Part shown: in pieces, positions 16,834 through 17,320 of the stretch
How positions within the stretch are numbered: the stretch's first letter is position 1
Layout: the number at the start of each line of letters is the position of its first letter
Source: Candidatus Bathyarchaeota archaeon
GTDB lineage: Archaea; Thermoproteota; Bathyarchaeia; 40CM-2-53-6
Length of the DNA stretch: 50,147 bases
Reading direction: 5' to 3'
NCBI GenBank assembly: GCA_005888755.1
Contig: VBBQ01000028.1
Span: forward strand, 148,763 to 198,909
Notes under the pieces: generated by a model
Seen by the model: the letters and a program-made list of their open reading frames with translations, nothing else
What the model was told of the DNA's origin: nothing
Databases searched by the model: none
Translations under genes and position numbers: made by a program

Positions 16834-16886
16834 ACTCTGGACCAACAAAAAGGTAAAAGACTATGCGACAGTGGCCCCGGAACGAT

Positions 16887-17051
16887 GCTCCGGTGGTGTA
16901 GCCCGGTTTAGCATAGCGGCCTTAGCCTAGCGAAGAACGGTAGGCGGCAAATCGTGCTCTCGCCGGGTAGCGGCGGAGAATCAAGAACTCCATAGCCGTT
17001 GATCGCGGGTTCAAAAGCGGCCCTCAGCCGCGGAGAGTCCCGCCCGGAGCA
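16887..17051 (+). tRNA. tRNA-Glu with multiple introns
   Basis: Acceptor GCTCCGG (16887-16893) pairs with CCGGAGC (17044-17050), discriminator A, then CCA. D-stem GTGT/GCAT, anticodon stem GCGGC (16916-16920)/GCCGT (16995-16999) and T-stem GCGGG/CCCGC are all present. The gene is 165 nt; removing 89 nt leaves a normal 76-nt tRNA. The T-loop holds a 22-nt insert (17016-17037) with hairpin GCGGC/GCCGC, and its removal restores TTCAAAT. The anticodon region has 67 extra nt. My best model removes 16924-16951, a nested 16981-16993 and 16955-16980, giving loop CTTTCGA (anticodon TTC). An alternative gives CTCTCGA (CTC). Both specify Glu, as do the acceptor and D-arm. A TATA-like GGTAAAAGA lies about 30 nt upstream. 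Confidence 0.8.
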
Positions 17052-17058
17052 CCACGTA

Positions 17059-17166
17059 GCGGGGGTACCATAGCCAGGTCAAATGGGCAGTGGGCATACT
17101 TACGCCCGCCGAGGGCTTAGGACCCTGTGGCGAAGGCCTTCGTGGGTTCGAATCCCACCCCCCGCA
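17059..17166 (+). tRNA. tRNA-Leu (TAG) with intron in the anticodon stem
   Basis: Acceptor GCGGGGG (17059-17065)/CCCCCGC (17159-17165), discriminator A, CCA encoded at 17167-17169. D-stem CCAT/ATGG, loop CTTAGGA with anticodon TAG (17118-17120), a long variable arm (TGGCGAAGGCCTTC) and T-arm GTGGG-TTCGAAT-CCCAC, all typical of leucine. The 5' side of the anticodon stem is broken by a 23-nt intron, 17091-17113 (boundaries may shift by 1-2 nt because of a repeated AG), with hairpin GGGC/GCCC. Splicing restores stem CAGGG/CCCTG and an 85-nt tRNA. It follows tRNA-Glu by 7 nt, so one transcript is likely; a T-run at 17172-17176 may end it. Confidence 0.9.
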
Positions 17167-17320
17167 CCAATTTTTCAATCAATCAATTGACTCGGCCAAA
17201 GACTATGATCGATAGGACACGAAGAGTCCGACTCCGAAGATTCTTGTGACGTGAACAACATTTGTGCTCTCGCTGGCTCTGGATAGGCTCGAGACTGCAC
17301 GATGCTTCAGTTCGGGGGCC

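Follow-up and report, generated by a model that had tools for sequence, protein, structure and literature searches.

The window, that is, the whole 50,147-nt stretch of DNA analysed here, lies within one contig (C13) of G000, a metagenome-assembled genome (MAG) of 2.01 Mb and 48 contigs whose host we take to be a soil member of the Bathyarchaeia. Its plus strand carries a tRNA-Glu(UUC) gene at 16887-17051, 165 nt long for a predicted mature tRNA of 76 nt, in which four exons alternate with four putative introns, all read on the same strand. Exon 1 (16887-16923), near-identical at its start among relatives, covers tRNA positions 1-34, i.e., the 5′ strand of the acceptor stem, the D arm, the 5′ strand of the anticodon stem, and C32, T33, and T34. 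Exon 2 (16952-16954) is a micro-exon of 3 nt (T35, C36, and G37) that supplies two anticodon bases; exon 3 (16994-17015) runs from A38 through the 3′ strand of the anticodon stem, the variable region, and the 5′ strand of the T stem to A59 in the T-loop; and exon 4 (17038-17051) comprises T60, the 3′ strands of the T and acceptor stems, and A73, followed by an encoded CCA (17052-17054). The intervening segments are I1 (28 nt, 16924-16951) at position 34/35, I2 (26 nt, 16955-16980) and I3 (13 nt, 16981-16993), which together form a 39-nt insert at the canonical position 37/38, and I4 (22 nt, 17016-17037) at position 59/60. Removing these 28, 26, 13, and 22 nt restores a functional-looking cloverleaf of 76 nt, called tRNA-Glu(ttc) by ARAGORN. 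This predicted mature tRNA differs by 2 nt and 1 nt from two tRNAs of the same genus without anticodon-loop introns (L032 and L033, respectively); the distance to L063, an intronless relative, is 4 nt.

Upstream of the gene, the element CAAAAAGGTAAAAGAC (16846-16861, plus strand, about −41 to −26) is promoter-like, and may act as the promoter. A AAAAGGTAAA-type element matching it stands 35-41 nt upstream in 14 of the 17 same-genus genes compared; no matching element was found in the remaining three (L022, L024, and L031). The unspliced gene was neither detected by ARAGORN nor matched in Rfam at the gathering score, as might be expected of a decayed, unexpressed copy whose inserts are debris. 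Such a reading is hardly credible, however, for a gene that keeps all stems intact in its exons, is the only UUC gene found in G000, occurs in 17 of the 18 genomes of the genus, and shares its upstream element with most of its counterparts. The tRNA-Glu(CUC) gene of G000 is a separate locus (L119) with inserts in the T-loop and on the D side. A tRNA-Leu gene (17059-17169) starts 4 nt past the Glu CCA and has an insert near the D arm or anticodon arm; in several relatives, too, the Glu gene is followed by a comparable Leu gene, whose insert is variable. A scan of viral contigs with the start of the Glu gene gave no match.

Intron boundaries in related genes

An automatic solver that removes bulge-helix-bulge (BHB) motifs and scores the resulting cloverleaf was run on 12 of the 33 tRNA genes collected from G000, and its output was left unused. 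For the known tRNA-Glu it returned a two-intron answer, preferred from the single sequence, that was wrong, and the proof of the introns therefore rests on comparison. We compared 25 tRNA-Glu(UUC) genes, 17 from the genus (the window gene included) and 8 from outside it, the relatives being MAGs of which several apparently derive from one sampling campaign. Because these relatives carry the 34/35 intron alone, a short one-step 37/38 intron alone, or neither, each boundary could be checked independently. In three genes (L032, L033, and L035) the anticodon loop is uninterrupted and can be read directly as CTTTCGA. In five others (L037, L038, L039, L042, and L044) the 34/35 intron is the only one in the anticodon loop, with 4/4 central pairs, while in L029, L034, and L036 the loop holds a 37/38 intron alone: 22 nt and 4/4 central pairs in L029, 17 nt and 3/4 in L034, and 18 nt and 4/4 in L036. 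The 59/60 intron occupies the same T-loop position in 19 of the 25 genes, window gene included, and its removal restores TTCRAAT every time, with 3-4 of 4 central pairs. An alternative reading of the window gene with anticodon CTC (CTCTC at 16957-16961), judged by eye, was rejected, the loop being CTTTCGA in genes free of anticodon-loop introns (L032, L033, L035, L050, and L063).

The preliminary description of this DNA, made from its letters, had given the 165-nt gene, the 76-nt tRNA, and all four intervals exactly, while leaving the count at three or four introns. Four are now supported, and comparison with relatives bears out where the 34/35, 37/38, and 59/60 inserts begin and end. I1, proposed from the hairpin GCCTA/TAGGC, does have this 5-bp inner helix, together with 3/4 central pairs and no outer helix (a relaxed hBH motif). 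I4, described as an unambiguous T-loop insert, has 3/4 central, 5 inner, and 5 outer pairs. The comparison with homologous tRNA-Glu genes that the same description had recommended thus yielded both the UUC loop and, as detailed below, the failure of the 37/38 insert as a one-step intron.

Further inserts were seen among the relatives. L030, L031, L034, L035, and L037 have a 53/54 intron beside the T-loop intron, with a 4/4 central helix. In the tRNA-Glu gene of G017 (L028:1501-1680) the T-loop is intact and the acceptor stem is interrupted at 70/71 by a 32-nt intron with 4/4 central pairs and an inner helix of 11 bp. Extra D-arm inserts occur in the tRNA-Glu genes of L042, L043, and L044, from other families of the order.

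A probable two-step insert at position 37/38

Read as a single intron, the 39-nt insert of the window gene has 0/4 central pairs, with the 7 outer pairs of 27-31/39-43 available. Read as two introns with a common 3′ splice site, it gives a good motif at each step. I2 contains GCGGC (16970-16974), an exact copy of anticodon-stem strand 27-31 that can pair with 39-43 and so build the motif of I3, which has 4/4 central pairs (GGAG/CTCC), 7 outer pairs, and no inner helix. The GGAG strand (16975-16978) is used twice, with CTCC for I3 and later with the exon strand CTTT for I2. With I1 and I3 removed, the I2 motif has 4/4 central (CTTT/GGAG), 3 inner, and 7 outer pairs. Its central pairs number 1/4 while I1 is kept and 4/4 once I1 is gone, and I1 must leave before I2 because it splits the CTTT strand. 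Its outer helix has 0 pairs with I3 kept and 7 with I3 removed, since A38 must adjoin the end of I2 for the full motif to form. With I1 removed and I3 kept, only a half motif of 4 central, 3 inner, and 0 outer pairs is available. In dinucleotide shuffles of the 39-nt insert, a two-step solution matching the observed one in quality arose in 0 of 2000 cases, with 15/2000 at a looser level and 745/2000 at the loosest. By these pairings the insert cannot form a BHB in one step and would resolve fully in two, I3 first and I2 next; the structure thus suggests that I3 is spliced before I2.

The same split recurs in relatives. Fourteen genes carry a longer 37/38 insert of 28-42 nt, and the one-step reading gives 0/4 central pairs in 13 of them and 1/4 in L030, whereas about a third of shuffled inserts reach at least 3 one-step central pairs. 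The two-step reading, in which an inner intron uses the same 3′ splice site, gives 4/4 and 4/4 in 11 of the 14 (L018-L027 and L031) and 3 and 4 in L030; it is weak in L028 and L043 (3 and 3 or 3 and 4). A strict two-step form with strong flanking helices is present in 10 of the 14 genes, compared with 0-14 of 2000 shuffles per gene (0/2000 for the window gene). We aligned the inner motif of 11 genes, namely those of the GRAG type plus L028, omitting L026, L027, and L043, whose inner intron is different. In these 11 rows, 96.4% of cells are paired, compared with 28-63% in slid versions, and the outer helix between the GCGGC copy and 39-43 reaches 98.5%; of the four unpaired cells, the central helix accounts for three and the outer helix for one. 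Two pairs of the inner central helix show a two-sided change, from G-C to A-U in L022-L024 and from G-C to A-U in L030. The covariation score and the percentage paired were each reached by 1 of 500 shuffles, and the number of pairs with a two-sided change was matched by 90 of 500. The outer (I2) helix can show no two-sided covariation because its exon strand CTTT is invariant. In the homolog L028 the inner helix is not supported, and neither this gene nor the outgroup gene L043 has a clear fit.

Candidate enzymes for this splicing are encoded in G000. Two PF01974 endonuclease genes are present. The alpha subunit (L048) aligns with EndA chain 3p1z_B, the Aeropyrum pernix enzyme, at an E-value of 4.3e-42, with the Y/H/K residues and the crenarchaeal loop lysine, which is K44 by counting in the alignment. 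A beta subunit (L049) and the ligase RtcB (L117) are also encoded. Judged by these residues, the endonuclease is of the crenarchaeal alpha/beta, broad-specificity type. I1, which has no outer helix, and I3, which has no inner helix, are relaxed forms of the motif, and passages of PMC6379350 attribute broad specificity to the loop lysine and describe this enzyme type as one known for relaxed motifs. Such an enzyme, together with the 7 outer pairs of 27-31/39-43, could in principle release the 37/38 insert as one continuous 39-nt intron in the absence of a proper motif, e.g., by recognizing the mature tRNA body. We find this improbable: central pairs are absent here and never exceed 1 of 4 among the 14 long inserts, a level that about a third of shuffles surpass by reaching at least 3, yet 3-4 of 4 are kept in the short 37/38 introns of relatives and in 10 candidate rows of G000, and a continuous intron leaves the covarying GGAG/CTCC helix unexplained.

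Predicted folds count partly for and partly against two introns removed in order. In the unspliced transcript, the GCGGC copy pairs with 39-43 at a probability of 0.99 and the true stem 27-31/39-43 at 0.0; the I3 centre GGAG/CTCC reaches 0.99, and the helices of I1, I3, and I4 coexist. Less favourably, with I1, I3, and I4 removed the true stem rises only to 0.56 versus 0.34 for the copy, and with I1 and I3 removed but I4 kept it stands at about 0.02. The central helix of I2 has a probability of 0.0 in the intermediate; the same value was obtained for three ordinary one-step introns serving as a control, and thermodynamic prediction of this helix was dropped as evidence. Across the 14 long inserts, the inner central helix is weakly predicted at 37 °C (0.0-0.19) in eight (L022, L023, L024, L026, L027, L028, L030, and L043).

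We therefore propose, with considerable confidence, that four BHB introns, spliced by proteins, interrupt the sole UUC gene seen in G000, and that two of these are stacked at the canonical position 37/38 and removed in a set order. In the primary transcript, strand 39-43 would pair with the GCGGC copy in I2 instead of its true partner 27-31, creating the I3 motif, while the I1 and I4 helices form simultaneously. The alpha/beta endonuclease would cut I1, I3, and I4, with RtcB ligating the ends. Loss of I3 would bring A38 and strand 39-43 against the end of I2, and loss of I1 would complete the exon strand CTTT. The true stem could then displace the copy and GGAG re-pair with CTTT, so that I2 exits through an ordinary 37/38 motif, a switch presumably completed by the enzyme together with the tRNA body as it folds. 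Order would matter because I3, if I2 were removed first, would be stranded in the anticodon loop and have no usable motif.

The two 37/38 introns might instead be adjacent and not ordered, with the outer one cut first or both cut before any ligation. The half motif of I2, available with I1 gone and I3 present, would permit this, and cutting both before ligation would yield an identical tRNA. This too appears quite improbable, as GGAG is required by both motifs and cannot serve them simultaneously. It is held by CTCC in the fold of the unspliced transcript, and I3 loses this partner strand once I2 leaves first, as seen both in the sequence and in the fold with I1, I2, and I4 removed. For a nested pair spliced in order, the preliminary description holds in most respects. 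Its I3 with GGAG/CTCC is borne out by the 4/4 central and 7 outer pairs and by compensatory changes across relatives. Its view that the I2 motif forms only after I1 and I3 are gone applies to the full motif, a relaxed hBH half motif being possible with I3 kept. The nested arrangement recurs as a two-step insert in most of the genus, but the inner intron lies flush against the outer one's 3′ splice site and not in its middle. Ordered splicing likewise stands insofar as the full I2 motif structurally needs prior loss of I3 and I1, with I1 preceding I2 for the separate reason that it splits CTTT.

Distribution within the genus and the host genome

Intron content varies within the genus. The tRNA-Glu(UUC) gene has four introns in 10 genomes (G000, G001, G006, G007, G009, G010, G013, G014, G015, and G016), five in G004 and G005 (34/35, two at 37/38, 53/54, and 59/60; the five-intron genes being L030 and L031), three or four in G017 (34/35, the 37/38 insert, and acceptor stem 70/71), two in G002 and G012, and one in G003 and G008. 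In an RtcB tree, from which G004 is absent (no RtcB match), in which G015 is placed on 112 residues, and in which several inner branches are weakly supported, the genomes with GRAG-type nested genes form a clade with support of 100, G017 included. G009 and G016, which have the different inner intron, fall in a sister group with single-intron and no-intron species. Two gains of the nested arrangement and one gain with losses both fit this pattern. More tentatively, and with somewhat more doubt than conviction, we suggest that the intron-borne copy of the anticodon-stem strand acts as a strand-exchange switch, and that this one genus evolved recursive tRNA splicing on at least two occasions (the GRAG type in the clade of G000, and the different inner intron in G009 and G016), with genes reaching five introns. 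Separately, the RtcB proteins L149, L150, and L152 (G005, G017, and G011) have a long in-frame insertion after about residue 112, which in G005 matches Pfam Intein_splicing below the curated cut-off.

Elsewhere in G000, a limited scan of 33 tRNA genes found no second nested case of strict two-step form at 37/38. The scan, which allows no other insert in the anticodon loop or in the interval between the anticodon and T stems, returned a one-step intron row in 10 genes, only a row without a 37/38 intron in 6, and no row in 17. The 34/35 insert leaves it blank for the Glu gene, and it hence cannot find a gene of exactly the Glu kind. Like I3, several of the one-step 37/38 candidates (11-15 nt) have hardly any inner helix or none at all. 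The T-loop intron pattern had one other match in G000.

Relation to known systems

In twintrons, mostly organellar or bacterial self-splicing introns, the inner intron is inserted into a functional part of its host intron. In outline, group II and III twintrons resemble the arrangement described here in having an intron within an intron and sequential splicing; unlike them, both introns here would be protein-spliced tRNA introns, of 13-26 nt. A literature search, thin on subscription journals, found no report of nested, recursive, or twintron-like archaeal tRNA introns, of archaeal tRNAs with four or five introns, or of tRNA introns in Bathyarchaeota. Experiments by Tocchini-Valentini in 2009 reportedly concerned a multiple-intron pre-tRNA and may describe a related case.

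The closest archaeal parallel is found in the Thermoproteales (Crenarchaeota), whose multi-intron tRNAs, according to passages of PMC8450103 and PMC4033280, likewise combine several short BHB introns at canonical and noncanonical positions with an alpha/beta EndA. The same passages put their maximum at three introns, as opposed to four here and five in G004 and G005. A limit of three per archaeal tRNA gene, and the possibility that close introns need ordered removal, also appear in the part of PMC8450103 that presents tRNAscan-SE 2.0, and the maximum of three per tRNA recurs in portions of PMC4033280 and PMC3293823. Relative to the Thermoproteales as portrayed there, the present gene further differs in that one splice site is common to two introns and one strand is reused, and in its soil bathyarchaeial host. 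In the red alga Cyanidioschyzon merolae, BHB introns are also removed sequentially, with 37/38 last, but its motifs are described in excerpts of PMC3978253 as folding independently, with the order set by stability, whereas here the outer motif would be incomplete until the inner intron is gone. The soil Asgard archaea Atabeyarchaeia and Freyarchaeia are, like the present host, uncultivated soil archaea with intron-dense tRNA genes; portions of PMC11291895 report that 92-95% of their tRNA genes are interrupted, over half having several introns, and make no mention of a nested intron.

Taken together, these comparisons point towards a conserved case in which a tRNA intron would be properly removable only after another within the same insert has left. 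One transcript and purified enzymes would here suffice for a direct test of the order of archaeal tRNA splicing. Since the genus also offers intermediate states of one gene (none, one, and nested, with T-arm and acceptor introns besides), it is suited to the study of intron gain, including a junction hit twice. Because standard detectors miss such genes, the annotation of tRNAs in soil Bathyarchaeia is probably incomplete. In G000, the Rfam cut-off was passed by 16 tRNA matches, compared with 32 matches to a T-arm pattern (some repeated). Many other tRNA genes of this genome are long, up to about 200 nt, and most of those inspected exceed a plain tRNA. One of them, L099, is a 202-nt gene, possibly tRNA-Trp, whose long intron may, judged by eye, hold a box C/D guide.
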